Positions 13,095 to 47,829 of a DNA stretch of 64,000 nt are shown piece after piece. Origin of the DNA: Crambe crambe (taxonomy: Eukaryota; Porifera; Demospongiae; Poecilosclerida; Crambeidae). Each line of letters begins with the position of its first letter. Positions within the stretch are counted from its first letter, which is position 1. The DNA lies in contig OZ004598.1 in assembly GCA_963924555.1 (NCBI GenBank), forward strand, positions 682,001 to 746,000. The letters run 5' to 3'. The notes beneath the pieces are model-generated. The model did no database searches. It saw only the letters and a list, made by a program, of their open reading frames with translations, and was not told where the DNA came from. Both the position numbers and the translations under genes were made by a program.

Positions 13095-16000
13095 CCTTAC
13101 CACTCTTATAATCACTCTTCCTCTGCACCTCAATGGAGTCACTCTCTCCTCCCCCTGACCCTCGTCCACGGGGGACCTCGGGAATCACAGCACTGGTACT
13201 GTAGAGGAAATTGGATGCCCCCTCAATTTCCTCCACACTATTCCCCTTGGGAACCAGAGTCCAAGACAAGCTATCCTCACTGATAGCTGTGGACTCTGAC
13301 CCCGATGAGGTGGATGGGATTTCTGGAGTGGATTTGATGGGGTGGGCGGTAATGAGAGGTGGAGCTAGTGCTGCTGGGGGTGGCAGAGGGCGAGTGGGGG
13401 GTGTGGTGAGCAAGGTGCTGTCTGTGTTATTGTGACTACTGGAGTCTGACGTGCTAGTGGTGGTGCCATGGGTACTGGCCACACCCACTCCATTCACTGT
13501 AATACAGTCATCTATGCAATTCAGTCAGTCAACGTATACATAGAACTATTGGGGAGGCCCCTGTAATTACATGTATGCTATATGAATCACATTAGAGACT
13601 CAGAGGTGTCCTGATTAAAGAGGTCTCCTGATTAGATAGGTGGAACTTACATCGAGGTTTTTAACTACCATAACTATGGGTGATTTTCTCCCGTACCTTG
13701 AGAGGGAGTGTGGTTGCTGCTGGTGGTACCTGATGTGAAGGGTGAGGTGGTGGAAGAGGTGGTGTGGGGAGAGGACAGAGAAGCTGGGTGGTGTTGGGGG
13801 AGGGTCAGCAGGTGTTCCAGGGTCTCATCAATGAGGGGGTGGAGGGAAGGGTCACAGTATAGGCGGAGTTGGGATAGGAACTCTACACCACCGATATCAA
13901 CCAGAGTGCACGAAGCTGCTTCATGCTGCATGGATTATAGCATACGCATCAATACATGCAGGCTTGAAACACACTCAAACTTAAAGCATTCACCTTGTCC
14001 CTTGATCATTTACTATAACTGCTATAACTTTCAATAGAGAGCTGATTACCCACTCTCTATGCTGGTGTTTGAAATTTGAAATTTGGTTAAGAATTGAGAA
14101 ATAGTGAATGATCAAGGGGAAGGTGAATGCTAAGAGACTTTAATTATGGTCACTGCAATTTTTATAGTAATGGCACTAGTTAGTGATGGACAGAGCCTGT
14201 CACTAGACACAATGATCAATCTCACTTGAGAACCCAACACGACCAAATAAATCTCCAAATGGTCTGTCATTAAGAAATACGTATCAATCAGTGTCTATTC
14301 ATCCTCATGGACTTAACTTTTATAGTGATTGCTGTATTGGAGGGTGGAGAGGGGTGGAGTTATAACACATTATACTAACCATGATATACTGAAGCTCATG
14401 GAGTGATTACACCACCACTTAAAAATGATATAAATATAAACAAGCAAAAATGAGCAAACGACACACAAAAGCTAAAGCTACAATATTATTAAAACACAGT
14501 AATCAAACTATCACAGCACTGAAGTTGAGCATGATAGCAATAAAAGCTAGCACAACTGAAAAGGTGTACCCTGGGCTGCTAATAGGAATACTGATACCTA
14601 AAAACGAGGGACGAAAATCAAATTCGTTTCTTTTTTCAATCTTCTGTAGAGATTTTGCATAATATATATTTTCAGGAGACATAGGTATTCGCATATCTTG
14701 GAAAGTGCTATTTACATAATCTCTAAGCTCATTAGATTCTGGATTTGAATTTTCACTATCTGGATCAATGTTTTGATATCTATTTGTTCTTCCAAGGCAC
14801 TTCACATAGCATTCTTTAAGTTTATTCTTCAAGAAATCATCCCTTATATGGATATTACAAGGGCATTTTTCATACCATTCTTCAAGTTTTTTCTCCCAGA
14901 AATCATTCGTTATATTGGCAGTTTGATATATCTCGAGTAATGTATTATAATAATCACTGTGAGCCTTATTACACAAAACTGCCATTAGATAAGGCAAGAA
15001 AAAGGCAAAGAAATCGAAATTTATATTCAGAGTAGTATAAATTAGGTCAAATATATTTTTACTTGACCTTTCATACAGTGGTCGTATGATGTGAATCAAA
15101 TCCATTACGAGTAATAATAAATACACCAGATATTGCACCATAAACCAAGCTTCCAAAGCATTGCATATCACTCGTACTTTCTCACCAGTATGGATATAAA
15201 TACGAGATAGTATTACACGTCTTCTTTCCAACTCCGAATAAACATGTTCATTATCCGTAACAAGTTCAGATCTCTGTGTGTGTAGTGCTTTTAATGAATC
15301 CTTCCAATATTTTTTTGAAGAACCAAACATCACTATAACAACGATACGAACAATATTTGGAAGAAATAAAGTGATTTCAATCATAGTGGCATATACTATT
15401 GCCAAGTTTTCATACTTACTTGTATCATTCTTACAAGAATTCGTACTATTATAATATTTCTTGTCTCGCAAGTATCCAATGACTGATATCTTCACTGTTA
15501 ACCACATCATTAACACGTACACTGCCACAGACAGTATTTCAACACAGTACCTTCCGATGAATTGTGTGCATTTCGTACGGATCCATTTACGCAGTTCTTG
15601 TGGAAAGGATATGTTATGCTGACAACAGAGTGATGTGAATATCTCATACCAGTTTAAATAATACCCGGCACAACCAATGAAAATAAGAAGCTCGCTACCT
15701 TGAAGGAGTGTTATACAACTATATATAGCATTTTCCAATACTGCATATGTGTTATTCAAAGAATTGCTACATTCACCGTGAATTATCCATAACTCCCGAG
15801 CAATATCAGTAGAAAATAGGGACAGATACAGGGAGATTCCAAACACTCCAATTATGCATAATAAACACAGTTTTTTACCACCTATAAAAGTTATGATCAC
15901 TAATTATATTGTGCATACTTGAGTTGCATGCAGAAATGCTGACAAACTATGCTATCTCTATAACTACCTACCTCTATAGGTTGCTATTACTACTTACTCA

Positions 16001-19000
16001 ATGACATTTTCCTTGAACAGTTCAGACTGAATGCAACGTGAAGTGTCAGTAGCTACTTGTCAGGAAGCTTTATATACTGTAGTTAGTTAATAAGCTGTAC
16101 CCACATAGCTACACACATTGAGTACTATAGTGACTATATAGAGCAAGGCACAGGAGGAAAATGAAAGCGTGAGATCACAATTTCACTATAGCAACTACAC
16201 ACAAAGACTATGAATGCATGGTAAATGAATATACTCAAACTTCATAAGGCAATAGCTACAGTATATCACATGCTCATTGTGGACTTTTATGTGATAGTTC
16301 CATCAAAGACTCTATTCGGTTCAGTTCCAGCTCCTGGGGTTGAAAATATAGTTCAGCCATCAGAAAACACAACATCTGAAACTGAGAAGATGTCAACTAT
16401 GCAAACTACAAATTTAATGTCTATGTCTTGAGCAGCCATATCATAACACAGAAGTAACACTACTGACTAGGATCTAGTTATTACAATATCTGCTGAGGTA
16501 GAATGACAAATACCACATCAACAGTATTATAGCATCAGAATTACTCCAACACAGTAAAGTTAAATAAAATAGCTATAAAAGCCAGCACAACGGAAAAGGT
16601 GTACCCTGGGCTGTTGATAGGAATAGTGATGCCTAAAAAAGAGGGACAAAAGTCAAACTGGTCTCTTTTTTCAATCTTCTTCCATAGAGATCTTGCATGG
16701 TATCGATCTTCAGGAGACATAGGTACACATACATTATCAAAAGTGTTAGATATGTGATCTGCAAGTTCAACAGATTTTTCTAAATTCTCATATCCATTTG
16801 CTCCTCTTCCCAAGTGATGAGAGTTTTGCTCCTCAGATTTTTTCTCTTGTACATTGGCAGTTTGAAATATCTTAAGTAATGCATTATAATAATCACTGTG
16901 AGTCTTGTTACACAAAACTGCCATTAGATAAGGCAAGAAAAAGGCAAAGAAACCGAAAACTATATTCAGAGTAGTATAAATTAGGTCAAATATATTTTTT
17001 CATGGCCTTTCGTAATACAGTGGTCGTATGATATGAATCAAATCTGTTGTCAGTAATAATAAATACACCAGATATTGCACCATAAACCAAGCTTCCAAAG
17101 AATTGCATATCACTCGTACTTTCTCACCAGTATGGGCATAAATACGAGATAATATTACACATCTTTTTTCCAGTTCTAAATCAATATGTTCATTATCAGT
17201 AACAGGTCCAAATGTTTTTGCACGTAGTGCCTTTAATGAATCTTTCCAATATTTTCTTGAAAAACCAAACATCACTATTACAATGATATGAACAGTATTT
17301 GGAAGAAATAAAGTGATTCCAATCAGAATGGCATGTCCTACTGCCAATTTTTCATACTTACTTGTATGATTTGGTCTGCAGAAATTCACAATAGCATAGT
17401 ACTTCTTGTCTCGTATGTATCCACTTGATAATATCTTCACTGCTAACCACATCATTAATAAGAACACTGCCACAAAATAGTATCTCAACACAGTAGCTTC
17501 CCAAAAATGGTAAGTGCTTTTTTGTTAGGAACCATTTATACAGTTTTTTTGGGGAGAAGTGACAACGAAATGATGTGATTATCTTACTCCATTTTAAGTA
17601 ATACCCAGCATAACCAATGAAAATAAGAAGCTCACTACCTTGAAGAAGTGTTATACAACTATATATAGCATTTTCCAATACTGCATATGTGTTATTGTCC
17701 TCACATTCACCTCGAATTATCCACAATCCCCGAAGAATGTCAGTTGAAAATAGCAACAGATACAGGGAGATTCCAAACACTCCAAATATACACAATAAAC
17801 ACAGTTTTTTACCACCTATAAAAGTAGTTGTACACTTGTATTGCATGCAAATACAAAAATATTGTCAAACTATATGGTAGCTATCATAACGTCCATCAAA
17901 ACAAGTCCATGGCAGGATAAAATATAGTTTAACTAGCTAGCTAGCTATACTTACTCAATGACATTTCCTTGAACAGTTCAGACTGAATATTGCAATAGTG
18001 AAATGTTAGTAGCTACTTATATAGGAGCTTTATACTGTAGCTAGTTGTGCCCATACACACGTGTACTATAGTGACTATATATAGAGCAAGGTATCAAAGT
18101 ACAACGGTACAGTTGTAGACCTCTTGTAATATGGCAGAATGCCCAATCAGCAATATATTATGTGTTTACAAGATCATAGTCCTCCTACTTGTGTCTCGAG
18201 TGAATAACTTATTTTCTATGACATAATAATACTCTCAGTGGTCTCACAAAATCAATAAAGAAGGGTGGTAACTACTGAGAAGCAACCTGTACACCTCAGC
18301 TATAAATCACCATGCATACAGATAGATACTTACTATAATGTGGGTTAAAACCCCTCTTTGGGGACAATGTTAAATGTATTGTATAGTGCATCATCTTGAT
18401 GGGTTTTACACTGAAAATGGCCTCGAAAAGTTGTGTACTTTGAACTTAGAGATGAGTTGAGCAATACCACGAGTCCATTGTCAAGGCTAAAGTGACACCA
18501 CGATACTGACAAGCTTTATCGGTTGTCTGACACTAGGGCGTGGCACCATTTAGCTATGCGCACTTCATTTGGCATTTTCCTTTGAAGAAATGGTCAGGAA
18601 AACGAGCAGCAACCAATGGACAAGTAATACCACTCTCTTGAGTAGTCCACTCCAACCACTGACTTACCTCCATGCATATTAAATGCATACATAACCTCCC
18701 ACCCAAAATACTGCTACATGTATCACATTATGTCTATAGGGCATGCAACAACACTCTATCCTTACCTGGACATGATTTCCCAATAGCAAATTGTTTAAAG
18801 GCAGGAAAATGTCCTATGACAGAGTGTTATTGTGACCCTTTGATTATGTATGATATGTACCTTAGAGTTGACTGAACCCTCCAACTATGTGTACTACAGA
18901 GAGTTGACTGAACCCTCTAACTACGTACCTGAGAGACTGATTGAGCCCCTTGACTATGAAAGACTGATTGATCCCTCTTACTATGTACCTAAGAGAGTTG

Positions 19001-19472
19001 ACTGATCCCTCTAACTATGTACCTGAGAGAGTTGACTGAGCCCTCTGACTATGCACCTGAGAGAGCCGACTGAACCCTTTGACTACGCACCTGAGAGAGC
19101 TGAGTGAGTAGAGTGAGTACTTGAGATTCACAGGCCCACTCTTCAAAGTTAAACCATTCCAGCAAGTGGGCGAGGAAGTCCCTCTCATTAGCCAGGTCTG
19201 ACAAGCTCAGCAAACCATTTCTGATTTTGAAGACTATGCTCCTGAGGCTTCGGCTACGAATGTCCAGCAGAGAGTGATCTGATAGTGGTGGTGATGGAGG
19301 AGGAGGAGGAGAGGAGGAGGAGGAGGAAGATGAGGAGGAAGGGAGAGGGGATAAGAGGAGGAGAAAGAAAAGTAAGGGAAGAAAGGGGAACAGCTCATTG
19401 GACTTTTGTGCACTAACTTATCTTGAGGAGCAAGTCTTTGATGGATACCTCCTCTGCCCTTGTCTTGTCCAT
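1..19472 (-). CDS. RTTN: Rotatin (30 exons; 3' end outside window)
   Basis: Rotatin is a large armadillo/HEAT-type protein of centrioles and basal bodies, needed for centriole elongation and ciliary function. Exons in coding order: 19418-19472, 19091-19278, 13697-13925, 13101-13496, 12929-12992, 12663-12777, 12381-12534, 11696-12063, 11202-11420, 11001-11129, 10723-10922, 10184-10298, 9655-9966, 9298-9435, 8820-8919, 8355-8594, 6461-6593, 5752-6168, 5102-5332, 4651-4854, 4385-4457, 4194-4325, 3552-3794, 2825-3228, 2132-2406, 1633-1847, 1269-1422, 867-964, 298-424 and <1-155. All joins keep one open frame, about 1,961 codons (human is about 2,226 aa). Recognisable stretches are HLLEWFNF (exon 2), VDIGGVEFLSQLR (exon 3), FQDFPPELFLQRP (exon 6), EDRDPNVRYAGLSLL (exon 23) and SQLTGVLHKLWP (exon 29). 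Exon 4 is a long Ser/Thr/Pro-rich insert. The donors of exons 12 and 14 were chosen for phase and are the least certain. Identity is firm; single boundaries may shift by a few codons. Confidence 0.93.
3415..3510. repeat. AAAC/AAAT-rich simple repeat in an RTTN intron
   Basis: Low-complexity run of aaac and aaat units between RTTN exons 24 and 23. No gene seen. Confidence 0.7.
3883..3965 (+). pseudogene. tRNA-Thr pseudogene, inverted relative to the intact copy
   Basis: The 5' half (GGCTCTGTGGCTTAGTTGG through the CTAGTAA anticodon loop) is almost identical to the intact tRNA at 4070-4143. The variable/T-arm part carries about nine extra bases and substitutions, so the T stem cannot form; the acceptor 3' strand survives. 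The two copies form an inverted pair separated by about 100 bp that includes a GA-rich run. Confidence 0.8.
4070..4143 (-). tRNA. tRNA-Thr (anticodon AGT)
   Basis: The minus strand folds as a complete cloverleaf. The seven-base acceptor stem pairs GGCTCTG with CAGGGCC. The D arm contains GTTGG, the anticodon loop CTAGTAA carries AGT, and the T arm contains GGTTCGAATCC. The body closely resembles the animal tRNA-Thr-AGT type. No intron is present and CCA is not encoded, as expected for a eukaryotic gene. It lies in an RTTN intron, on the RTTN strand, between exons 22 and 23. A degenerate copy lies about 100 bp away in opposite orientation. Confidence 0.93.
4500..5005. repeat. Short tandem repeats around RTTN exon 20
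   Basis: Two intronic arrays flank exon 20. At about 4500-4612 a unit of about 23 bp (tactggagagaatactgaaag) is repeated four to five times. At about 4883-5005 a unit of about 33 bp (tttactgattctagtatact plus ggggcagtg) is repeated four times with small changes. Confidence 0.75.
6612..8175. repeat. 1.56-kb foldback element (long inverted repeat)
   Basis: The left arm begins GGGTCATTCCATTTCAAATC and the right arm ends with its reverse complement at 8175. The arms stay recognisably complementary for roughly 600 bp each (6612-7230 against 7560-8175) with scattered mismatches, around a central spacer of about 330 bp. No long ORF is present. It sits in the RTTN intron between exons 17 and 16. The pattern fits a non-autonomous foldback transposon or a large MITE. 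No convincing target-site duplication could be read. Confidence 0.85.
8195..8290. repeat. AGGACACC-rich intronic repeat
   Basis: Several copies of a loose unit containing aaggacacc and atcaggacac lie between the foldback element and RTTN exon 16. Similar AGGACACC words recur in INTS2 introns near 34920-35010 and 36660. Confidence 0.5.
10318..10682. repeat. Minisatellite in the RTTN intron between exons 12 and 11
   Basis: About ten imperfect copies of a unit near 33 bp built on caccatagtatactagaatg followed by ttcattaatac. Unit length varies through small indels. The reading frames through it are repeat artefacts. Confidence 0.85.
12077..12222. repeat. Minisatellite in the RTTN intron between exons 8 and 7
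   Basis: Six to seven copies of a 24-25 bp unit (taaagtaattacagggttcc followed by cccca or similar) lie just upstream of the exon 8 acceptor. One unit survives at about 48680 in the decayed RTTN relic, which shows that the array lay inside the duplicated segment. Confidence 0.85.
13049..13091. repeat. (GA)n microsatellite next to RTTN exon 4
   Basis: Uninterrupted GA repeat of about 40 bp, 10 bp downstream of the exon 4 donor. It makes a false extension of the exon 4 reading frame (Leu-Ser repeats). Confidence 0.9.
14503..16007 (-). CDS. Seven-span membrane protein, copy A (intact)
   Basis: I do not recognise this family by name. Two exons: a 10-nt first exon (15998-16007, ATGTCATTGA, then gtaagt) and 14503-15899. 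Splicing gives about 468 aa beginning MSLMIITFIGG. Seven hydrophobic segments are visible: LCLLCIIGVFGISLYLSLF, a segment around LLQGSELLIFIGCAGYYL, VYVLMMWLTVKISVIGYL, LFLPNIVRIVVIVMFG, WFMVQYLVYLLLLVMDL, FDFFAFFLPYLMAVLC and the C-terminal YTFSVVLAFIAIMLNF. A charged amphipathic stretch lies between spans 4 and 5, and a roughly 115-residue polar loop before span 7. The layout resembles the insect gustatory-receptor-like (GRL) fold, but that is inference. The gene is nested in RTTN intron 2 on the same strand, with paralogues at 16541, 22558, 25245 and 62099. Confidence 0.75.
16541..17964 (-). pseudogene. Seven-span membrane protein, copy B (frameshifted)
   Basis: Paralogue of copy A in tandem, also inside RTTN intron 2. 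It has the same 5' module, with an ATG at 17964 and a gtaagt donor. The body is split into three frames: 17358-17846, 17000-17491 and 16541-16936. The breaks fall after YCVEIL and after RPLYYERP, and the residues match copy A on both sides of each break. The loop before the last span is shorter than in copy A. The acceptor phase for exon 1 also fails. Two frameshifts make this a pseudogene unless the assembly is wrong at both points. Confidence 0.75.
18870..19090. repeat. Roughly 35-bp tandem repeat in RTTN intron 2, beside exon 2
   Basis: About six imperfect units containing gagagagttgactgagccct and tgactatgtacct. The array begins with the exon 2 donor sequence itself, and each unit keeps a CTGAGAGAG-like piece, so the repeat seems to have grown from the exon 2 3' end. 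A shorter homologous array lies at 28095-28260 next to the dead copy. Confidence 0.75.
19091..19472 (-). other. RTTN: RTTN exons 1 and 2, the active copy
   Basis: Exon 1 (19418-19472) starts at an ATG on the minus strand at 19472 and reads MDKTRAEEVSIKDLLLKI. Exon 2 (19091-19278) reads on through RSRSLRSIVFKIRNGLL to a gtgcgt donor. Spacing around the junction (KINHSLLDIRSRSLRS) matches the human N-terminus (KLGHPLEEIRERALKS) without gaps, which fixes both the start codon and the exon 1 donor. The first downstream exon is 5.2 kb away at 13925, so intron 2 is unusually long and contains 7TM genes. A second copy of both exons at 28.2-28.85 kb is disabled, so this copy is taken as the functional one. 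Confidence 0.88.
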
Positions 19473-19784
19473 TGGACTCGAATTTTCCCGCCAAATTGCC
19501 GGGAGGTTAAGGTTCACATGGTGAGCATTAATTGGGAAGAACTCACAAGGGACGACTTTCATGACTTTGCTGAAGATTCAACCGTAATCTCACTGGTTCC
19601 GAAGGTAAAGAATAACCTTTATGAGGTACTTTTCTGTAGGCCAAGTTCGTCATTCCTACGGCCTAAGCTTTATAGAATATTGCAGACATTCCAGCTACGA
19701 ATGTCCCCTTTTCATTTTGCAGCCAGCAGAGATAGTATTATTACGGCAGTATTATATTATCTATGCAGCCAGGATTAGGGGAAC
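19473..19784. promoter_or_regulatory. Bidirectional RTTN/INTS2 promoter, left copy (drives RTTN)
   Basis: This stretch lies between the RTTN start codon and the homologue of INTS2 exon 1. TTTTCCCGCCAAA at 19483-19495 is a close match to the E2F consensus and is conserved in the right copy at 28836-28848. A CCAAT sequence on the minus strand overlaps the RTTN start codon. The homologue of the INTS2 5' leader exon and its donor (gaag|gtaaag near 19605) is still visible, but it leads into a dead INTS2 copy. E2F control would suit a centriole gene; that part is inference. Confidence 0.6.
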
Positions 19785-20401
19785 CAGGACACAACAAGCC
19801 CCACCCATCCCTTAGGATTATCATTGCCCTCTTCTCAGGAAATATAAAGGAACTCCTTGCCCTTTCACTTGCCCGGCCGGATGGTTCTGATCACTCCCAT
19901 TCTGGCTCCAGAGTGTATTGGACAAGGAGAAGGGCCATACACACTGCCATTGTTGGCATAAGAGAAGTCAATGTCATCAAGAGTTATCTTGAGGTGGTAT
20001 TCGAGAGATTTACTGTATGGTATTTTATGTCCCATAAAATATTTTATTAACTGAGTTTACTAACGTCTTTGAAATTTGGGGATCAAATTAGGTGATTAGT
20101 AAATATGTATAGTCTAAATCATTAAACATTCGGTTTATGTCTTTGCCCAGTAAGAGGTCAGCCAGAAATGTCTGTTTTCTCCTCTTAACTTTTATAGGTG
20201 GTTCTTTCTGAGCAGGAAGATACTACCATTGAGGAGGTTGAAAGTACTGGTAGCATCACGGCCTCCAGGTCTTCTGAGAGACTTGAGGAGTTGATGGACC
20301 AGATGGACATTGAGTTGAGTGATCATGAAGGAGAGGAGGGTGCAGACAGGGGGGTCAGAGGGGGAAATCAGAGGAACTGGAGAAAGGGAGGGTGTGGGTA
20401 A
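19764..20401 (+). pseudogene. Decayed INTS2 5' fragment (exon 1 plus part of exon 7)
   Basis: 19785-20000 matches INTS2 exon 1 (29121-29408), including [13 protein letters not shown] and IHTAIVGIREVN. However, the start codon region reads ggattagggg where the intact copy reads gaatcatggg, and about 33 bp encoding [13 protein letters not shown] are missing. Soon after, the sequence jumps to the intron before exon 7 and to exon 7 itself (20198-20400: [28 protein letters not shown]), so exons 2-6 are deleted. It cannot encode INTS2. Confidence 0.85.
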
Positions 20402-20639
20402 TAATGTTTGATATTTTGTGCAAGTCATTCATTCTGTGATAATATTGTCATCCTGTGGTTTGTTTTCATATCCTGTTTTGTGCTAATCATTTTTGGCGAG
20501 GCAGACAGCTCTTCAGTGTTTAAATCAAGCCGATTTTTGGAAAAAGGCTTTATTCCAGAAAGAAGGGCAACATTCCAGCTCCGTAGTGCTCCTATCCCTC
20601 TTAGCCTTCAACCCATGCAGTGATCAAAATTTCTAACAC

Positions 20640-21085
20640 TTGAGTTGCATGGTATGTCTACAATGCAGAAATGCTGACAAATTAGCTATGGTACAATGAC
20701 ATTTTCCTCAAACAGTTCAGACTGAATACTGGAATGTGAAGTATACTTAGCTATCAGGAAGCAGTTAGTTGGCTGTACCCACACAGCTACACACATTGAG
20801 TACTATAGTGACTATATAGAGCAAGGCATAGGAGGAAAACGAAAGAGTGAGATCACAACTTCATTATGTAGCTACTATATACACATGAAGACTACAATTG
20901 GTAAAACTCACAAGGCAGTAGCTACAGTATATCACAATGCTCATTGTGGACTTTTTATGTGATATGTAGTTCCAAAGACCATTTCTTCATGGTTTAGTTC
21001 CAGCCCCTGGGATTAAAATAATTATAGTCCAGCTGTTAGAAAACTGAAACTAAGTACACCTGAGAAGATATCATCACTATGCAAA
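20640..21085 (-). pseudogene. Orphan 5' module of the 7TM family
   Basis: This segment matches the sequence upstream of copy A (about 15930-16440) and of the caspase gene (about 52000-52480): gacattttcctcaaacagttc, cacattgagtactatagtg, ctcattgtggactttttatg. It includes the initiator ATG region near 20702, but no coding body follows. It is also the empty site for the small transposon at 52261-52336. From 21086 to 22557 no gene is seen. Confidence 0.75.
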
Positions 21086-22557
21086 AAATGTTAATGATAG
21101 TCACAACTAACTGCATGTTTTCTCATGTTTTCTCAGGAATTCCCCATATCTATGTAGCTATGCTATTAGCAATTCCAGAAGTCATATACATTTCCTGCAA
21201 GTAAAATGTTAATAATATTCATGACCATGGAACTGCAGATATTTACTCAGGAATTCCCCATAGCTGCTATACATGCCACACTCACAGTGTAACAGTTATG
21301 GATGCACACCATTACATTACTACTGCTAAATTAATAACTACATAACACTCTTATAGTTAGTGACTAGCTATAATGATGGTTTTTAGTATATTAGCTAGCT
21401 AACTTAGCTATGCAACATTTGAAATGAATACACATAACATGGCAACAGTGCTACTATACTATCACAGTGGATTGACTGCTACTATAGTAGCTGCATGTTA
21501 GTCTTCCATAATCCTTCGAATTGGTCTTCCATTTATCTCATAAGCTAGCTACAATACATTCTTTACACAATTCTGAGTTAAAGATCTGTGAGGCTAGCTA
21601 GCTACATGCGACATTGCTTGATTGGCCCTGTCCATTTCTCAGACTTAGGAACAACCAGACTTTCCTTTTTTGGGTTGGTAAAAGTGCTCAGAAGAGTGAC
21701 CACAAGCAGCATAAGTACATGCAAGGTTTCTAGTTATAATGTACATGCGCAGGACGAAAGATGAAATAATCTCTTATTAGTTATTACTAGTATCCACATT
21801 GATTTGAAGTCAAGTGATCATATTATGCACACATGGTATCTATGGAAAAGCACTATACATAATTAATAACAATATGCATAGCTAGAAATGTGTCACTGTA
21901 ATGAAGTGTATAACATGACAACAACATCCCATAATGGGTGCAGGAGATAACTATACTCGATCCACCTGGGGCAAATAAAAGCCCACATGGTTTTAACACT
22001 GGTAATAAAAATACTGCATGGGAGTAAATACTTATTGTTTTGTCTCCTAGGTGATAAACTAATACCAATCATGCTAATCAACAGTCTAGCAGTTTGTTAA
22101 CTGCATGCAATTCACATGATTGTCATACACAGTGCTACATGTAGGGAATGCCCATATAAACGTTTTGATGTTGACTTATCATCCTCGTGAATATTTGTTT
22201 TTTTCCCTTTTTCTTATGAATATGGGTAGCTATGAGTAGACAAAGTGCTGAGACATGACCTGTGAACTCCATATTTTGCTTATGGGACATACAGCAAACT
22301 TCTTACCGGTAAGGAATTGGTCCTTATAAAAAGCATCATCATAAATCTCGGATAATTAGCTAGCTGCTGGTGTTTGAAATTTTAAAATTGGTCAAGAATT
22401 GAGCAAGTTATCGCGGATATAAGAATGGCAAGGTGAACGCGCGAATAGACTTTAGCTACATAGATTTCTTCATGCTTAATTTACATTTTAATAGTAGATC
22501 AGACATTGCATTGAAATTCAACAGTTTAGAAATTACTCTATAAGATAACACATATAA

Positions 22558-23796
22558 TTATTTCATTAAACCTGATGTAACACTAAAAAGAGATATTATA
22601 AGAGCATATGTATAAATGGGGCTGTTAATAGGGATGCTAGCACCAAAAAGATTGGGACGAAAATCCAAGTTATCTTTCTTTTCGATCTTCTTCCACAAGG
22701 ATCTTACATAATATTTACTGTGTTGACCATCCACAGGTTCATCATCTAATGAATCATAATCACCCGTTTCGTTTTTTGGGCAACAACACAAATTTTTACG
22801 ACATGCTTTAAAGTAATCCTCTTCTTCACATTTATAGTGACCGTTTTGATATAACTCAAGTAATGCTTCATAGTAATCATTATGAGCTTCATTACACTTA
22901 ACTGCCATCAAATAAGGCAAGAGAAATGTCACCAAGTCAAGAATTACATACAATATAGTACGCCATCTGTCATAATCATTGTTTGGTTTTTGATTCTGTA
23001 CTGGACTTAAGACATGTATCAAATCAGTCGTCAGTTTTACTGAGTAGACAATAAATTGCAGCATGAACCAAGCTTCTAGAGCTTTGTATATCACTTGTAC
23101 TTTCTTACCAATAATTCGATAACCATATGATAATTTTTGACATCTCTCTTCCAGCTCTGAATCAATTTTATCGTCAGTAACATCGATGTATAGCTTCTCA
23201 CTTAATTTTCTCAATGAGTCTTTCAAATGTTTTCTTGCTAAATCCAATAGCACTATAACAAGTATACGAACTACACATGGAACAATGATGGTAAGTCCAC
23301 TCATGACAGCGTGAGTTATTATAAATTTATCATATGCACTTGTGCCAAGCAGACCACAATAATCTGAAGCATTATAATCTTTGTCTCGATTATGTCCCAT
23401 TTTTGATATGGCCACTCCTACTGTAAAGGGCAGAAAGATATATACTACCACAAACAGCGTTGGTATGGAACAACAATGACAGAATGCTTTACAGGTGAAA
23501 GATTGCAGCTTATACTCCTTACATATGGTACTCCAGTAATAGGTGAAAGATTGCAGCTTATACTCCTTACATATGGTACTCCAGTAATAGCCAACATACA
23601 GAGTAAAAACTAACAGCTCAATAACTTGCAGAAGACCAACAAAACCATATAGCACATTTTCTAATGATTCTTTATTTTCTTCATCACATATACCTTGATA
23701 TATATCAATACCCAAGTGTGTCACGTGTAGTAGGAATCCAATAGTTCCAAATAGATAAAGCAACAACTTGGTAGTTAACAGTTTGTTACATGACAT
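22558..23796 (-). CDS. Seven-span membrane protein, copy C
   Basis: Single open frame of 412 aa starting MSCNKLLTTKLLLYLFG. It is the same family as copy A but a different branch (copies C and D are about 90% alike). Shared marks are the EAWFMLQFIVYS span, LLPYLMAVKCNEAHNDYYEALLELYQ-like residues after span 6, a Cys-rich loop (CRKNLCCCPKN) and the C-terminal signature DFRPNLFGASIPINSP before the last span. A 48-bp tandem duplication (23493-23540 and 23541-23588) repeats the 16 residues YYWSTICKEYKLQSFT in frame; copy D lacks it. No intron is needed. Function unknown. Confidence 0.72.
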   Translation of the reverse strand: MSCNKLLTTKLLLYLFGTIGFLLHVTHLGIDIYQGICDEENKESLENVLYGFVGLLQVIELLVFTLYVGYYWSTICKEYKLQSFTYYWSTICKEYKLQSFTCKAFCHCCSIPTLFVVVYIFLPFTVGVAISKMGHNRDKDYNASDYCGLLGTSAYDKFIITHAVMSGLTIIVPCVVRILVIVLLDLARKHLKDSLRKLSEKLYIDVTDDKIDSELEERCQKLSYGYRIIGKKVQVIYKALEAWFMLQFIVYSVKLTTDLIHVLSPVQNQKPNNDYDRWRTILYVILDLVTFLLPYLMAVKCNEAHNDYYEALLELYQNGHYKCEEEDYFKACRKNLCCCPKNETGDYDSLDDEPVDGQHSKYYVRSLWKKIEKKDNLDFRPNLFGASIPINSPIYTYALIISLFSVTSGLMK

Positions 23797-24730
23797 TTAT
23801 GACTCCTCTTGCGCAGCAGTCTTGTAGAAACTCTTTAATTGTCCTTGAAAGCTATGCAAATTCTCTTAGGCACAGCCTCAGACCATAGATTGTAGGGACT
23901 ACGTAACCGGGATTGGAAGAGTAACTCTTCAAGTACTTCCTATATACTCCACCAGGGCAAGTATAGCTAGCTGTCGATGTCATGAGCATGCGCGTGGCGC
24001 TCTTGCGGTATAAACGGCCCAGCCACTCCTTTGTGCATGCCCGCATTAATTAATACAAGAAAAAAGACTGGGTATTAAGTGTGCAGCCATTGATCCTGGT
24101 GATTTCTTTCAGGTTCTTCTTCACCTCTGCACCTTCTTGTGCTCTGAGTAAAGATATTGAAGCCTCCCTATCAGTTGATCATCCCTGAGGAATATAATAT
24201 TAAAAATTAATGTACTCTGAGCTTTTCTTGGCAAGGGAATGCATACATTTGGAAAGCATAGGTGGAGGGCATGAACTTGTTATGAATATAAATTGGGTCA
24301 CTAGAAACAACTTAACTTTTCCAAAAAGGTACGCAAAGACACGCCCAGCTAATGTGAACTATTGGCTGTAACTCTTGAATACATGCAAAGTTCACTACAT
24401 TTTAGGTACGAGGGCATGAAGTAGAGTGTATACTAAACTCTGAAACTGTAAAGCAATTTATTCTTTCATGTAAGGGGATACAGGTAGCTACCTATACACA
24501 AAGCCAAAACAGGCTAAAACAGGCTGGTATAGGTGTCCTAGCAGCAAACATTTGTGAGTAAGGTGGTGAAGTTACGAGCTATGAGCTATATATATGCTAT
24601 GGACTTCTGAACTTCGAGTCCTCCATGTCAAGCTTTTTCAGCTCTTACACTATTTTGTACAACAACGAAAATTAAACACATGAAAATTAATTACCTTGAA
24701 CATGACCTTGAAAATAAATCAACATCGAGT
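23797..24730. other. Intergenic, no gene seen
   Basis: Upstream flank of copy C, AT-rich with no supported ORF. A short stretch near 23890-24040 has moderate GC content but no recognisable product. Confidence 0.4.
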
Positions 24731-24737
24731 ATGTACC

Positions 24738-24790
24738 CATTTTTAGGTTATCTGAGTCGAAAATTGGAACTCAGATAACCTAAAAATGGG
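24738..24790. repeat. Near-perfect hairpin
   Basis: CCCATTTTTAGGTTATCTGA at 24739-24758 is repeated as its reverse complement ending at 24789. The stem is about 22 bp and the loop about 10 bp. It lies between copies C and D. It could be a tiny palindromic MITE or a structured element; no flanking duplication could be read. The rest of 24791-25244 shows nothing. Confidence 0.8.
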
Positions 24791-25244
24791 TTGTTTTTAC
24801 ACATTTTTAAAAAAGGGACTTTTGGTGTCATGTGCCATATGATGTATTACATGTGTGGACTATTCATTCTGGAGCTAGCAGATTTTGTTAGTAGCAGCTA
24901 TAGCTATACTAATCTTTCAAATTCTTGAACATTGCATGCATGGCCACCTCCCTGGCAGAATGAGTAGCCACAAGATCAATGTGTCAATTGCACTACTATT
25001 ATACCATAAAAGAAAAGCCCACATTGGTAGTAAAAATACTGCATGGGAATAAATACAAATTTACTATTTTGTCTCCTAGGTGCATGATCAGCACTACATT
25101 GATTATTATTATTTTTTTTGAGAATTAAGATTCTTCATGCTTAATACAGTAGATCAGAATCCATCAAACAATTGTATTGAAACATAAAAATTCATGAAAA
25201 TTACTCTAAAAAATAGGGATGATATCACCACATAATATGTGTAA

Positions 25245-26444
25245 TTATCTTGTTAAACCAGATATAACACCAAAAAGAGATAGTATAAGAGTACACGTAT
25301 AAATGGGGCTACTAATAGGGATGCTAGCACCAAAAAGATTGGGACAAAAATCTAAGTCATCTTTCTTTTCGATCTTCTTCCACAAGGATCTTACATAATA
25401 TTTACTGTGTTGACCATCCACAGGTTCATCATCTAATGAATCATAATCACCTGTTTCGTTTTTTTGGCAACAACATAAATTTTTACGACATGCTTTAAAG
25501 TAATCCTCTTCTTCACATTTATATTGACCATTTTGATATAACTCAAGTAATGCTTTATAATAATCACTATGAGCTTCATTACATTTTACTGCCATCAAAT
25601 AAGGCAAGAGAAATGTTGCCAAGTCAAAAATTAGATACAATATAGTACGCCATCTGTCATAATCATTGTCGGGTTTTTGAGAATTCACTGGTCGTAAGAC
25701 GTGTATCAAATCAGTCGTCAGTAATACTGAGTAGACTATAAATTGCAGCATGAACCAAGCTTCTAGAGCTTTGTATATCACTTGTACTTTCTTACCAATA
25801 ATTCGATAACCATATGACAATTTTTGACATCTCGCTTCCAGCTCTGAATCAATTTCATCAGTAACATGGCTGTATAGCTTCTCACTTAATTTTTTCAATG
25901 AGTCTTTGAAATATTTTCTTGCTAAACCCAATAGCACTATAACAATTATACGAACTACACATGGAATGATGATGGTAAGTTCAGTCATGATGGCGTGCAT
26001 TGTTATAAAGAAATCATATGTACTTGTGCCACGCAGACCACAATAATTTGAAGCATTATAGTCTTTGTCTCGACCATATCCCATTCCTGATATGGCCGTT
26101 CCTACTGTAAGGGGAAGAAGGCTATATACTACCACAAACAGCATTTGTATGGAACAAAAATGACAGAATGTTTCACAGAATGTTTTATAGGTGAAAGATT
26201 GCAGCTTATATTCCCTACGTATGGTTCTCCAGTAATAGCCAACATATAGAGTAAAAACTAACAGCTCAATACCTTGCAGAAGATTAACAAAACCATATAG
26301 AACATTTTCTAGCAATTCCTTATTTTCTTCATCACATTTACCTTGATATATATCAATACCCAAGTGTGTCACGTGTAGTAGGAATCCAATAGTTCCAAAT
26401 AGAGAAAGCAACAACTTGGTAGTTAACAACTTGTTGCATGACAT
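25245..26444 (-). CDS. Seven-span membrane protein, copy D
   Basis: Open frame of 399 aa. The start is taken at the ATG at 26444 (MSCNKLLTTK) because copy C starts there; the frame upstream (to 26510) lacks another ATG. It has the same membrane-span order and C-terminal signature (DFCPNLFGASIPISSP) as copy C, with the unduplicated YYWRTIRREYKLQSFT segment and a small ETFC insertion. It sits between the two copies of the RTTN/INTS2 promoter block. Function unknown; probably a receptor, channel or transporter at a membrane. Confidence 0.72.
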   Translation of the reverse strand: MSCNKLLTTKLLLSLFGTIGFLLHVTHLGIDIYQGKCDEENKELLENVLYGFVNLLQGIELLVFTLYVGYYWRTIRREYKLQSFTYKTFCETFCHFCSIQMLFVVVYSLLPLTVGTAISGMGYGRDKDYNASNYCGLRGTSTYDFFITMHAIMTELTIIIPCVVRIIVIVLLGLARKYFKDSLKKLSEKLYSHVTDEIDSELEARCQKLSYGYRIIGKKVQVIYKALEAWFMLQFIVYSVLLTTDLIHVLRPVNSQKPDNDYDRWRTILYLIFDLATFLLPYLMAVKCNEAHSDYYKALLELYQNGQYKCEEEDYFKACRKNLCCCQKNETGDYDSLDDEPVDGQHSKYYVRSLWKKIEKKDDLDFCPNLFGASIPISSPIYTCTLILSLFGVISGLTR

Positions 26445-26599
26445 TATGACTCCAGTCGTTGAAAGCAAATTAGTCCTTTCCACATTATGTGGAAGCTGTG
26501 AGGAATTCAATCAATACGCGAGGACACTTCCGGGGCGGGGTACATTTCATCGACCTCACTTTTCTGCACGTTCCTTTTATAAGAAAATCAATGAAAATT

Positions 26600-28085
26600 A
26601 ATTATTGTTGTTTTACTGATGGAGTAGTCGAGTGTGAACGGGCGAGAAGTTACAAGCTGTTAAAAGCGATGCTGGACACTATCTTTGATGTTTACATGTA
26701 GGTTGGGGCTGATATATAATGGCTGGTTCCAGTAGCTTAGAGAATGTATTCCTGGATCCAGTAGCTTAGAGCTTGATGAGAATGATATTCCTGGTGCAGT
26801 TTTGAATGAGCCACTGGAAAATGCTACAGTTCATGCTCTGAAATGGTGGCTCCTCTGCAGCCACCATCATGAAGAAAACCCAAGCTTATAGATCAGTAAG
26901 AAATGAATTGAACACATTAATTTTAGAATATAAATCTTACTTTTAGCATTTGAAAAGCTAAAGAAGGTTTAGAAGTAGTTGCACCGTAAAATTCAGTCAG
27001 CGTCTACTATAGCTGATTCTATCAAGGAAATACCTGCTGGCTGTACTATTTAAAATTTGAGGTGCACTAAATGGAAAAGACCTGCCACTTCATCCAAATA
27101 AAAGCATTAAATTGAACATGTTGATTTAGGTTGCTATATCTCTGTTAGGTATTCTCTATACATACCTTGTGGATTGTGTTGGCCGAAGTGAAGCATTTCG
27201 TTCACTCCAAAGAGGATTCACTTGGTCTTCTGGTTGGCTATCAAAATTGGACTTAAATCCATACTTCTGTCACATTCGTTGTAAGCTCACACCCTCAATG
27301 AAGCAAGGGTTTGTATAATGTGTACTTACTGAAGGTGAATTGGCTATGATTCGTGTGAATGTGCTGCTGTGTATGACTGAGTGATTGATTTAAGTTTGTT
27401 CCCGCAGGAGGACTATACAATTGGTTATGAATATACACATAAGGCACATTGTTATTAATCACAGACTTATATACCATTCTGTAAACAAGACGTCTATATA
27501 CAGCTGTACCATTGTACTCCTCTCGTGACATGAACTAGCTCATCTGGCAACAGCCAGGGTCAAATAATTTTAGACTGAGATATCAATTCAAAATCGAGAC
27601 ACTCGCACCACTTTTGGTTCCAAACAAGATGGATTTCCAGGCTGTCTTGATGGATTTGTCGCCCCAAAATTTGATAGCTAGATGGTTCCTGGTAGCTACA
27701 GATATAGATCATGCATTTGTACAATTGATCCAGGTCAAATTGATGGTGACCACTGTAAAAAATGCTGAAGCTTACTTCCTTGAAGAAGTTTTATGCAACT
27801 GTGTTTGAACTTTATAAGTATGGTTATGAAGAGAAGTGTTACGTTCACCTTGCATTATCCAAAATCCAGGTTCAGATTGCCAATGTTCAATAACCAATGT
27901 AGACTATTCACAGTGGTTAACCAAGTTAGACATTTTACTGAGAAGTAGTCTTGCATGTAGTGCATTACCTACTTAAGTACCTAAAACACTACATATGTAT
28001 CACAATGACATCAGACTAACATTATCTGGTCATGATTACCAATTTAGACTGGACAAAGAAAAAATCCTATGACAGTGTTATTGTG
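26600..28085. other. Intergenic region with two relics
   Basis: No intact gene. At 26775-26870 a short plus-strand frame reads DENDIPGAVLNEPLENATVH followed by ALKWWLLCR, which resembles the SAP-like start of transposon-borne proteins; it is broken soon after. At about 27765-27860 the sequence resembles, on the minus strand, the span-2 region of the 7TM family (cttgaagaagttttatgcaac, ttcaccttgcattatccaaa), heavily decayed. Confidence 0.4.
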
Positions 28086-28094
28086 AGCCACTTT

Positions 28095-28835
28095 TACAAT
28101 TGAACACTCTGACTATGTACCTGAGAGAGTTGACTGAGCCCTCTGACTACATACCTGAGAGTGCTGACTGACTATGTGCCTGAGAGAGCTGCATACCTGA
28201 GAGAACTGACTGAACACTTTGATTATGTGCCTGAGAGAGCTGACTGAGTAGAGTGAGCACTTGAGAGTCACAGGCCCACTCCTCAAAGTTGAACCACTCC
28301 AACAAGCAAGTGGGCAAGGAAGTCCCTCTCGTTAGCCAAGTCTGACAAGCTCAGCAAACCATTTCGGATTTTGAAGACTATGCTCCTGAGGCTTTGGCTA
28401 CGAATGTCCCTGATAGTGGCAGTGATGGAGGAGGGGGGGGGGGGGGAGGGGAGGAATCATCTCCCTTTCTTCAAATAAAATGGCTATCCAAAAAAAATTT
28501 TTTGTAGTGTAGCTAAATTGTAATTATGTTGTTGTTGCTTTTGTTGCTGTTATTTTTCATTGTTTTTGCTTTTAACTCTTCTATCAGCATGTATTATGTA
28601 ATTACCCTTATCTTATCCATTATGTGTAGTTACTACTTTTAATATTGTGCGTTTTGTCATCTGTGTGTGTAGGTTTACGGTCCTGGTGTTGAACACCAAA
28701 TTGTTTACAAAAAAGAGAGAGGAGGAGAAAGCCTTTCAGGAGAGAGAAAAGAAAGGGGCAGCTCATTGGACTTCTGTGCACTAACTTGTCTTGAGGAGCA
28801 AGTCTTTGATGGATACCTAGCACAGCGGACTCGAA
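28095..28835 (-). pseudogene. Dead copy of RTTN exons 1-2
   Basis: Homologous to 18870-19472. Exon 2 lies near 28170-28390 with three lesions. A 4-bp duplication (caagcaag) frameshifts the HLLEWFNF region. About 14 bp covering the exon 2 acceptor side (HSLLD codons) are missing. In exon 1 the block with the start codon and MDKTRAEE is deleted, so that ggatacctagcacagcgg abuts the promoter. A long insertion (about 28440-28720, including a G run) separates the exons. It cannot serve RTTN. Confidence 0.85.
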
Positions 28836-29110
28836 TTTTCCCGCCAAATTGCCGGGAGGGTAAGGTTCACTTGGTGAGCATTAATTGGGAAGAACTCACA
28901 TGGCCGCGACTTTGCGAAGATTCTAGTCTCGCGAAGATTCTAGTCTCGCGGAGATTCATCCGTAATCTCACTTACTCGGAAGGTAAATAGCCTTTAGGAG
29001 GTACTTTTCTGTAGGCCAAGTTCGTCATTCCTACGGCCTAAACATTGCAGACATTCCCATAGCATGCGTAGTTTTTAGACTAAAGGATGATGTCCCCTTT
29101 TCATTTTGCA
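28836..29110 (+). promoter_or_regulatory. INTS2 promoter and 5' leader exon, right copy
   Basis: The E2F-like TTTTCCCGCCAAA is at 28836-28848. A probable noncoding first exon ends at 28985 (ctcggaag|gtaaat), and the 5'-UTR intron ends with tttcattttgcag at 29111, ten bases before the INTS2 ATG. A short direct repeat (gcgaagattctagtctc, twice, 28913-28950) is present here and absent from the left copy. Confidence 0.6.
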
Positions 29111-29120
29111 GCCAGGAATC

Positions 29121-32100
29121 ATGGGAACCAGGACACAACAGGCCCCACCCAGCCCTAGGGTTTTCATTGCCCTCCTCTCAGGAAACATAAAAGAACTCCT
29201 TGCCTCCTCTTCAGATGACCTTCGACCTTTCCTCCCTTCACTTGCCCGGATGGTTCTTGTTCCTCCCATTCCGACCTCTCTTGGGGGCATGGCTCCAGAG
29301 TGTGTTGGACAAGGAGAAGGAGAAGCAAGGAGAAGGGCCATTCATACTGCCATTGCTGGCATAAGAGAAGTCAATGCCATCAAGAGTTATCTTGAACTCA
29401 ACTTTCAGGTATTCTAGAGATTTGGTTTTCTGTATAGTATTTTCTGTCCCTTTGAAAGATCCTCTAAGGTGAGACCTTTGATGTCCTCCCAACCCAATCA
29501 GAGTTCTCTGACCAGTGACACAATTGAATACATATCTGACCAATGACCCATATCTGAATTTTGAACCTGTTGCGTTGGCATACGTACGTATATACCTAGA
29601 GTTATGATGACCCTTTACCTGATGAGCCTGACTTAATGTATATTCACTCGTGTACTGGCATACTCAAAACACACTAGGAACTGAGACAAGATGCCATTAA
29701 AGAGCAGCAGCTGCTGAAGAAACTAGGTCCAGAGGACAGAAGCCAGTCTCAAAGCATTTTAGCCTCTTCTCTTCAATTTGGACTGGCCATAGAGTTTGAG
29801 AGAAGCAACTTTCTTCGTCGTTTTCGTCTGTTTCTGAGTGAGATTCTGAAGGTCATGGGTCAACTGGATAGCCCTGGACAGTTCAAGTTGATTCAGTCTG
29901 ACCTGTTTGAGTGCGAGTGTCACTTGGAGGAGATATGCGATATCATGTGTGTTGCCACAGCAGGTGGGTGGAGTTTGAGGGAGAATCAGAGTCTGTTTGT
30001 TTATTGTTATTGTTTATTTGTTTGTTTATCTCCCCTCCCTACAGAATTATCCTCTCTGCTGCCAGTTGTGCAGTTATCTGAAGCATTGCTACGGTTACGG
30101 AATGGACCACACCTTCTTGCCAGAGTGCTGGCCAACATGCCAGACAGTTTTGACCAAGGTAAAGTACAGCAGACTCAAAGTGTGTAAGTCGACTAAGAGA
30201 GCTATAAAATGTTTGAGATTTGAGCAGGCATTCAGACCATATGATACTGAAAGCATAGCAAATAATAACTGAATGCATAGCAGTTTGATGACATGCACTA
30301 TAGTTATATCAGGGTTTAATTCAGAATTTTATTTAAGGGGGATCAAATGCCTAGTAAGGAGGGGCAAGTACAAACCAGTGCATTTATGTGGAATTCTATG
30401 ATAATCTCATTACGAAAGCTAGCTAATTCCTAGGGGGCAAGCCATCGTTCAGGGGGGGGGGGGGCAGAAGCCCCCCCTCGCCCCCCTTGAAATGAACAAC
30501 CTTATACTTCCAGTGGTGACCTCCCTGGTGCTGAATGGAGAGACATTGGACGAGGTCTCACTGGCTGGGAGGTGTCGGACGGGAGCCATACAGATGCTGT
30601 GTCAGATGCATCCTGCCAAGTCTGCCTACGTCCAGTCCCTGGCCATCAGCAACTGCAAACACCCAACACTGGCCCTCTCTCTCGCACTCGATGCTGAGGA
30701 AAACAGGCTCAGGCAAGCACTTGGGAAAATGACCAGTGATAAGTATAGTTACTCTGTAGTTAAAGTTATTAGTCTCTCTTCTTCTTTGCCTTCTGATGTC
30801 TTACAGATTGCGTTCTTACGGGATGGAATCTGAACGTCACGTCAGTCCAATTCTGGATCCAAATTGGGCTTCGGGACAAGCAGGAGTCATCACTCTTCTG
30901 CACAACATCATCATTGCTGGAGATGATCAGACCAGAGTCTGGTTTGCCCAGTACCTCAAGTGCATGCAGCAAAAGGTAAGCCCCTGTTAATACATCAGCA
31001 GATGTGCAGAAAGTGTGGATTGGGAGAAATATTGAATCAGACTATGCAATACAGTGTGACCTTTGCTTGTTTTCCAGTACCGACGCCACAAATATTCTGC
31101 CGTCACTAAACTCCGCTCCTACATTTTGAGGAAACTTCGTTCCTTCAACTCTCCCTCAACTCCCAAATTGGACCCCCTAAGTTTCTCCCCTCACCATCGA
31201 CCCTCATTACCATCCGGAGTGCAGGAAACCATGGAAACAGAGTCATCACTGATATCCACTCAGGAAGCCGAGACTAATCAGGTCAGCTCGCTATGTAACC
31301 CCCTCCCCTCCCGCAAGGACCTATTCCCTTTTTCATACATCATCCCAATCTTCAAAGCTTAAATTCACTATCAGTACTGATTCGTGTTTTTGATCATTCC
31401 TTGTCAACTCTTAACCAGTTCACACAGCTCTCTGCAATGTGAAATTTATGAGAAAGTTAGAGCAGATAATATAGTGAATGATAAGGAATAAAGTATTTTA
31501 CGAACTGAGTTTATAAATGCTGATTCAAGGATAAAGTTATGACAAAATTAATGCTCTAAATGAATATATCATTAATTAAACATTCAGTTACATCTTTGCC
31601 TAATCAGAAATGACTGTTTTCTCCTCTAACTTTTACAGGTGATTCTTTCTGAGGAGGAAGACACTACTACCATTGAGGAGGTTGAAAGCACTGCTAGCAT
31701 CACGGCCTCCAGCTCTTCCGAGACACTTGAGGAGTTGATGGACCAGATGGACATTGAGTTGAGTGACCATGAAGGAGAGGAGGGTGCAGACGAGGGCAAG
31801 GGGGAGGGGTCAGAGGGGGAGGTGGAGGAAATCGGAGGAATTGGAGAAAGAGAGGGTGTGGGGATGAGTGAGAAGATAGAGTCTTCGACGCACATCCATG
31901 TGGGACTGAGTGGGGAGGTGGGGGAGAAGGAGAGGATGGGGGCGGGGCCTGTAAGAACCGTCGAGAAGGAGGGAGGGAGTGGCGTAGTAGGGGGAAGGAG
32001 GAGGAAACACTCGTCCACTTACGAGAAAGCGAACTTTGTGGTTATTTCAATGGAGAAACAACTTCCTAATGAGGACATAGTGGAGCTGATGAACCTTTTA

Positions 32101-47593: not shown

Positions 47594-47829
47594 CTGGATC
47601 AATGTAAGGAAGTATGGTATATGAAAGGGCAAGGAACCTAGCAACATGTTGGAAAACTTATATGATTTCATGACATGAAATGATCTTCCAATGATTGATA
47701 GAATGACAGTTCAGGAGGAATGAGATGACAAGAGATCAAATTAGTCTGGCCAGAGGTTGGTTACATTACAGTGGAACTGAATTGGCATTTTGTTCCAGTT
47801 CCACTGTACTGGGTCACAGTATGGGCATG

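Follow-up and report, generated by a model that had tools for sequence, protein, structure and literature searches.

What becomes of two genes that share one promoter when the promoter between them is copied? Bidirectional promoters couple two genes, and there are many of them in compact genomes. The question is raised by a window of 64,000 nucleotides from the sponge Crambe crambe (the whole stretch of DNA analysed; contig OZ004598.1, positions 682,001 to 746,000), where RTTN and INTS2 form a head-to-head pair on opposite strands with their 5' ends facing (RTTN on the minus strand, INTS2 on the plus strand, one core between them). This block is found in the window at 18.9-20.4 kb (A) and again at 28.0-31.9 kb (B). 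A sequence-only reading had proposed that the block was duplicated in tandem, that each gene was kept at a different copy, and that this represents a division of function. Why does each copy keep one gene and lose the other? Our preferred answer, to which we give a probability of about 0.65, is a partial tandem copy followed by decay of the stubs that it left.

The features of the window are collected in Table 1. RTTN was identified by its Pfam domain (RTTN_N, E 4e-16); its N-terminal pieces gave no match to solved structures at E 0.01. RTTN exons 1-2 had been described as intact in the left copy, and they are: the ATG is present, both exons have GT donors, and exon 1 continues in phase through exon 2 into exon 3 (starting at 13925). 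The frameshift, lost splice side and deleted start described for RTTN in the right copy were all recovered, as the 4-nt insertion, the GT-to-GC donor and the missing exon-1 start. A complete RTTN here means only that all 30 pieces found are open in copy I and that this copy has five 3' pieces absent from copy II; in the whole-gene splice chain, no accepted splice pair was obtained at pieces r8b and r17 in either I or II. The dN/dS of RTTN between I and II is 0.43 with a dS of 0.021 (piece r8 dropped, wrong frame of r8b).

INTS2 was identified by Pfam INTS2 matches (E 6.6e-30 and 3e-17) to two ORFs of the copy in the window. The chain of copy III matched Pfam INTS2 with E 9e-279 and the Integrator subunit 2 chain 7cun_B, which we take to be human, with E 1.3e-190, both for a provisional chain that contained an incorrect stretch at exon 9. 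Exons were chained with AG acceptors only and with GT or GCAA donors only. INTS2 is complete in the right copy, as had been claimed, and its 21 exons chain without internal stops. Three copies of the gene are present in the genome; copies I and III each have 21 exons and 1333 aa with a dN/dS of 0.083 between them, and copy II is broken (I-II dN/dS 0.117). The left copy has lost the INTS2 start, part of exon 1 and exons 2-6, again in agreement with the sequence-only reading: the ATG is gone, exon 1 is gapped, and exons 2-6 gave no match in block A. Between A2 and B1, dN/dS is about 0.5 for exon 1 (14 synonymous and 21 replacement changes) and 0.75 for exon 7 (5 and 14). The INTS2 pieces in A thus appear to evolve as a dead gene, and the death looks early. 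Each gene survives at a different block type, and in each type the gene that died lacks its 3' body.

Table 1. Features of the RTTN/INTS2 locus in the window (window positions).
Feature	Position	Strand	Remarks
RTTN exon 3	13697..13925	-	beyond 5.2-kb intron 2; RTTN extends left past window edge
7TM-like gene a1, within RTTN intron 2	14506..15870	-	open frame; hydropathy
7TM-like gene a2, within RTTN intron 2, frame broken	16544..17864	-	
RTTN exon 2, block A1	19091..19278	-	donor GTGCGT; Pfam RTTN_N E 4e-16; phase chain
RTTN exon 1, block A1	19418..19472	-	ATG, donor GTTAGT; open, phase 1 end, in-frame join to exon 2
promoter core A1	19473..19550	.	TTTCCCGCCAAA at 19484-19495; INTS2-side donor GTGAGC; 3 substitutions in 77-78 bases vs B copies
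dead INTS2 exon 1, block A1	19781..20005	+	no ATG; gaps of 26, 18, 16, 9 nt; one extra base
dead INTS2 exon 7 piece, block A1	20198..20398	+	frameshifted; INTS2 homology ends at 20398
7TM-like gene b1, between A and B	22561..23796	-	hydropathy
7TM-like gene b2, between A and B	25248..26444	-	hydropathy
dead RTTN exon 2, block B1	28231..28417	-	4-nt insertion, 13-nt deletion, donor GT-to-GC
RTTN exon 1 remainder, block B1	28786..28816	-	31 bases left; start codon deleted
promoter core B1	28827..28900	.	TTTCCCGCCAAA at 28837-28848
INTS2 copy I, complete	29121..37094	+	21 exons, 1333 aa, no internal stop in chain; Pfam INTS2 in ORFs of exons 2 and 19
older RTTN remnant	47814..49700	-	pieces r12, r7, r6, r3

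A comparison of A with B gave three colinear pieces of 69-82% DNA identity (E 6e-105, 3e-102 and 9e-84). That the block occurs twice holds for the window, where A and B are homologous, but not for the genome, which has five such blocks on the chromosome (A1, A2, B1, B2 and B3). All five lie on the + strand of one contig as direct repeats in tandem order, and these colinear repeats of the same orientation bear out tandem copying. The 264 kb around the array contain no N, placing the five blocks on one gapless stretch. Blocks A and B are 9353 bases apart in unit I and 9350 in unit II. The block tree is ((A1,A2),(B2,(B1,B3))), with its two inner branches supported at 100/100 and 99/96. Lesions of the A-type stubs are common to both A copies and those of the B type to all three B copies, the exception being the 13-nt deletion, which is found in B1 and B3 only. 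Identity between copies is mosaic, ranging from 72 to 100% per 500 bases, and long I-II and I-III stretches are 99-100% identical. A and B were the first to split; the copying of segments of about 41 and 16 kb came afterwards and shows this mosaic of identity. Unit II breaks off inside RTTN, leaving a truncated and frameshifted copy, and unit III is without the RTTN body. The net gene state is one RTTN that looks complete, INTS2 complete in I and III, and copy II of both genes broken.

A partial tandem copy would explain this arrangement as follows. The ancestor would have carried RTTN and INTS2 head to head, sharing a single compact promoter. Tandem copying would then have taken in a segment that extends from RTTN exon 3 across intron 2 and the 7TM-like genes inside it, past the promoter and into INTS2 exon 7. 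The left copy of the promoter would still have been joined to the RTTN body and carried an INTS2 stub, and the right copy would still have been joined to the INTS2 body and carried an RTTN stub. Both stubs would then have decayed, with the 78-base core retained in each copy. Later, a further round of copying at the locus, accompanied by exchange between copies, would have produced unit II (with a truncated, frameshifted RTTN and a broken INTS2) and unit III (INTS2 complete, RTTN body absent). The truncated genes were likely dead from birth, with the stubs presumably non-functional at the start. Since the dead gene in each block is the one without an attached 3' body, a single rearrangement explains both losses and no selective choice has to be invoked. 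The complementary loss is most simply the geometry of the duplication break.

None of the 12 INTS2 pieces e8-e19 matched in the A-B gap at E 0.01. Of the 28 pieces of RTTN beginning with r3, a remnant was seen there for r3 alone and r4-r27 were unmatched, although short pieces (16-18 aa) might escape this search. The r3 remnant is seen in unit II only (C21:774233-774307, E 2e-6; the best E in 20 shuffled 264-kb sequences was 0.003). It lies to the left of the 7TM gene b1, parallel to exon 3 at the left of a1. A match to RTTN intron 2 in the gap of unit I was set aside because it overlaps a stretch that matches elsewhere too.

The 7TM-like genes have 7 (a1), 6 (b1) and 7 (b2) hydropathy stretches. 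No Pfam match was obtained for b2 or a1 at E 0.01, and the predicted structure is poor (mean pLDDT 46.4, six sequences). It had been claimed that the duplication placed 7TM genes between the promoters; they are better read as genes of RTTN intron 2 that were probably copied along with the intron. Insertion between the copies is not favoured, as RTTN intron 2 already houses 7TM-like genes in the A units of I and II, and the exon-3 remnant to the left of b1 in II also counts against it. The path between the a and b types is about 0.46 without tips, compared with about 0.2 between A and B blocks; both types may therefore predate the A-B copy.

Could the losses instead be truly reciprocal? As the sequence-only reading proposed, two complete RTTN-INTS2 units would then have stood in tandem with all genes working, and each would later have lost one. 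Long RTTN stretches have been copied repeatedly at the locus (as copy II and as old remnants at 675 kb and 730 kb), and in B, RTTN exon 2 seems to have been under constraint for most of its history, with 3 synonymous changes and 1 replacement on the stem of the B copies. Between A2 and B2 this exon differs at 7 of 187 sites, versus 24 of 87 in the leader intron. Such an exon is too well preserved for a stub that died when A and B split, and this speaks against the partial copy; it could reflect either a late death of RTTN in B, favouring two complete units, or exchange between copies. Reciprocal loss is nevertheless rather unlikely, given a gap without matches to INTS2 e8-e19 or RTTN r4-r27, an INTS2 in A that looks dead early, and a single break that accounts for both gene losses. 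Duplication of a whole unit with one deletion in the gap would yield the same picture as the partial tandem copy.

The proposed division of function by complementary loss of promoter elements finds no clear support: the core is kept in all five blocks and one rearrangement suffices. With regard to the initial completeness that subfunctionalization involves, INTS2 in A looks dead early and RTTN exon 2 in B does not. With regard to regulatory loss, the B blocks lack 24 bases beside the core on the RTTN side, start codon included, which have been replaced, and no matching core loss in A was seen in the A/B alignment. A promoter role for these 24 bases at the start of exon 1 is possible.

In all five blocks the 78-base core holds the E2F-like motif TTTCCCGCCAAA, and about 50 bases separate the RTTN ATG from the leader donor on the INTS2 side. 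Core and exon-1 tail together, minus the 24 bases between them, carry 4 substitutions in 108 bases (A1-B1) and 3 in 109 (A2-B2), compared with 47/182 and 40/141 in the leader stretches (p 4e-7 and 2e-8 by Fisher's test, for stretches picked once the alignment was seen). The motif has 73 sites in the genome versus 2 for the reversed control. We infer that the core still fires, and the motif may act as an E2F site. The claim that a shared promoter was split into two single-gene promoters stands in that there is one core per surviving gene; the locus is, however, an array and not one pair, with two complete INTS2 genes.

The core is not alone in being well kept, as RTTN exon 2 is also alike between A and B, and gene conversion could partly account for the high core identity. 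It has to be considered whether conversion alone explains it, so that the core is free of selection and one direction or block may be silent. The mosaic identity between copies agrees with this, as does the unusual A-B similarity of RTTN exon 2, which is dead in B. However, towards INTS2 the well-kept tract ends at the leader intron, and it contains a 12-mer enriched 73 to 2 genome-wide, and we consider a core without selection unlikely. Two haplotypes of a single locus put in tandem by the assembly, despite the 99-100% identity of long I-II and I-III stretches, are highly improbable given the end of II inside RTTN, the 72 to 100% range of identity, three INTS2 copies and gapless sequence, and for A and B they are ruled out by the leader intron, where 23 of 87 sites differ, too many for two haplotypes, and by the occurrence of the A-B pair in both I and II.

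How does this locus compare with known systems? The compact genome of the sponge Amphimedon queenslandica has bidirectional promoters and head-to-head genes whose start sites are no more than 1 kb apart (PMC4773876). The architecture is alike, but the part of that paper considered here describes pairs and not duplicated and split ones. A study of how divergently paired genes originate discusses tandem duplication, overprinting and rearrangement (PMC2670823); the architecture is again that of RTTN/INTS2, but the question there is how pairs come about, whereas here a pair was dismantled by duplicating its middle. In NPEPPSP1-TBC1D3, a partial segmental duplication carries a promoter without the 3' exons, and the copied promoter is used (preprint PMC12871316). 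The partial gene copy is similar, but there the copied promoter drives a neighbour by fusion and here each copy retains one gene of its own. No paper was found on INTS2 together with RTTN, and the literature on bidirectional promoters and duplication held no matching case among the matches listed.

The split of the shared promoter is a readable example that follows mostly from the position of the duplication breakpoint. The locus presents one route by which promoter-sharing genes are uncoupled, by copying the middle, with remnants readable on both sides. Because a partial tandem copy alone yields the complementary pattern, such loss around a duplicated bidirectional promoter need not imply that selection has divided the work. 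It is doubtful that the split also uncoupled copy number, with INTS2 amplified (I and III on B-type cores, intact and constrained) and RTTN single. The five blocks offer a natural way of testing which features a core requires for firing one way or both ways.

The minus-strand and plus-strand genes of the head-to-head pair were identified as RTTN (Pfam RTTN_N, E 4e-16) and INTS2, respectively. Three colinear alignments of 69-82% identity between 18.9-20.4 kb (left block, A) and 28.0-31.9 kb (right block, B) bear out the block homology proposed from sequence alone, and the shared promoter is indeed duplicated, as a 78-base core between the two genes is present in both blocks. The condition of each gene is also as first described. 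In A, RTTN exons 1-2 are intact and in phase with exon 3, and INTS2 lacks its ATG, has a gapped exon 1 and no exons 2-6, and ends within exon 7. In B, the INTS2 splice chain is complete (21 exons, 1333 aa, no internal stops), and RTTN has lost its start codon; its exon 2 has gained 4 nt, has a 13-nt deletion and no longer has a GT donor. The sequence-only reading took this complementary decay for a division of function. The pattern is real, well preserved and broader than first described, but it is mostly explained by the geometry of the duplication.

The block was also said to occur twice. Both A and B in the window are real, but when the genome (143 Mb, 119 contigs) was searched with a 166-base core-bearing piece, five matches were found, all on contig OZ004598.1 (C21). 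These are A1 and B1 in the window and A2, B2 and B3 beyond it. Joining the flanks C21:622001-682000 and 746001-886000 to the window gave 264 kb without N, in which a larger array of segments I, II and III is seen.

Features of the C21 array (C21 position = window position + 682000)
Feature	Position	Strand	Remark
RTTN exon 1, block A	window 19472-19418	-	phase-consistent join to exon 2
RTTN exon 2, block A	window 19278-19091	-	phase-consistent join to exon 3
RTTN exon 3	window from 13925	-	in phase with exons 1-2
7TM-like pair a1, a2	window 14506-17864	RTTN strand	in RTTN intron 2
7TM-like pair b1, b2	window 22561-26444		matching place in B unit
Segment I	C21 683.6-722.6 kb		
Segment II	C21 749.1-790.0 kb		matches part of I
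Segment III	C21 806.2-822.5 kb		matches right part of I
Block A1	C21 701.4 kb		core-bearing
Block A2	C21 771.4 kb		core-bearing
Block B1	C21 710.8 kb		core-bearing
Block B2	C21 780.7 kb		core-bearing
Block B3	C21 809.9 kb		core-bearing
Older RTTN remnant	C21 675 kb		piece r3 and 7TM-like remnant
Older RTTN remnant	window 47814-49700 (C21 730-732 kb)	-	pieces r12, r7, r6, r3; between INTS2 I and RTTN II

The block tree is ((A1,A2),(B2,(B1,B3))), with branch supports of 100/100 and 99/96. The A lesions are common to A1 and A2 and the B lesions to all three B blocks, save that only B1 and B3 have the 13-nt deletion of RTTN exon 2. Tree and shared lesions together indicate that the A-B split predates the copying of the larger segments.

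In each block, it is the gene lacking its 3' body that is dead. A single tandem copy spanning RTTN exon 3 through INTS2 exon 7 would produce the entire complementary pattern, and such a one-event origin is favored because none of the 12 INTS2 pieces e8-e19 matches the A-B gap (E 0.01) and only one of the 28 RTTN pieces from r3 on has left a remnant there (r3, unit II, 774.2 kb, E 2e-6; the best E among 20 shuffled 264-kb sequences was 0.003). INTS2 in A appears to have evolved as a dead gene: two of its exons give dN/dS of about 0.5 (14+21 changes) and 0.75 (5+14 changes). The few changes in RTTN exon 2 of B count against a single-event copy with immediate death: on the A-B stem, 3 changes are synonymous and 1 is a replacement, and A2 and B2 differ at only 7/187 sites (24/87 in the leader intron). 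The numbers are small, and the cause may be late death of RTTN in B, conversion, or an RTTN that was once complete in B.

Could the array be two haplotypes assembled side by side? Two haplotypes would not be expected to give what the dS values imply, which is that parts of one segment differ in age (RTTN I-II 0.021, INTS2 I-II 0.105, INTS2 I-III 0.036). Compared in 500-base windows, I and II are 98-100% identical in 16 of the 23 windows that align over the RTTN body and 87-97% identical in the others. Identity is 73-88% over most of RTTN intron 2, where the 7TM-like genes lie, 88-100% from the A-B gap through block B, and 92-98% in INTS2, with one window at 72%. INTS2 I and III are 99-100% identical over the first 4 kb and 92-99% beyond. 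These mosaic ages point to exchange between copies. RTTN exon 2 of A1 differs from that of A2 (C21:771082-771267) at 8/188 sites, and the RTTN pieces pooled give a dS of 0.02; local exchange is likely here.

Searched against the genome, INTS2 exons 1-6 and 19 match at 24 places; each lies on C21, in one of the three copies or in an A remnant. INTS2 I and III are complete, with 21 exons each, and differ by 9 replacement and 34 synonymous changes in 1315 codons (dN/dS 0.083). INTS2 II is broken: its exon 1 is frameshifted, exon 13 contains a stop, exon 16 is split, and no exon 8 match was found. A DNA piece across RTTN r20 and r21 matches the genome twice, in I and II. Five pieces of RTTN I, r23-r27, were not found in RTTN II, where an extra A in a run shifts the frame of exon 5; this is possibly a homopolymer sequencing error. 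The RTTN I-II dN/dS of 0.43 fits one live and one dead copy.

The 7TM-like genes were thought to have been placed between the copies. The pair b1/b2 does lie between A and B, but a1/a2 already sits in RTTN intron 2, across which exons 1-2 join exon 3 in phase. It is most likely that these genes were carried along with the duplication. Among the matches found (at least 27), the near family is almost confined to the array, with one relative at C16:2374592 (49-54%); distant relatives occur on contigs C1 and C16 and at other places on C21. The structure model of the protein was too poor for use. Left of the window, at C21:672041-681235, a gene of roughly 300 aa, presumably papain-like, is present four times, and between these copies lie other pieces that we take to be helicase-like. 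An ORF with a caspase domain (Pfam Peptidase_C14, E 3.5e-26) lies at window 50937-51704, a 3.3-kb repeat pair (98%) at C21:827222-833492, and a 147-base-period array near 836 kb (C21:835842-836846).

Among the papers listed on bidirectional promoters and duplication, no bidirectional promoter split in such a way was found. PMC2670823 discusses the origin of divergent gene pairs, and PMC12871316 describes a partial duplication carrying its promoter.

The core and the 31-base RTTN exon 1 tail show 3-4 A-B differences in 108-109 sites (omitting the 24 bases between them, which include the RTTN start codon, replaced in B). Across the leader intron and the stretch that follows it, 40-47 of 141-182 sites differ (p 4e-7 and 2e-8 versus core plus tail, for stretches picked after inspection of the alignment). 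The INTS2-side donor GTGAGC persists in A, where INTS2 is dead; in B, where RTTN is dead, RTTN exon 1 still has 31 bases and its donor. All five cores hold the 12-mer TTTCCCGCCAAA, which we assume to be an E2F site. With 73 occurrences in the genome, versus 2 for the reversed control, the 12-mer probably represents a genuine regulatory site and is possibly a common promoter motif of the genome. In A1 and A2, an 86-aa open frame begins on the INTS2 side of the core (window 19518-19778 and C21:771500); it differs by one residue between A1 and A2, its ATG is TTG in B, and it may be due to chance. The persistence of the core in all five blocks and the uncoupling of RTTN and INTS2 copy numbers merit follow-up.
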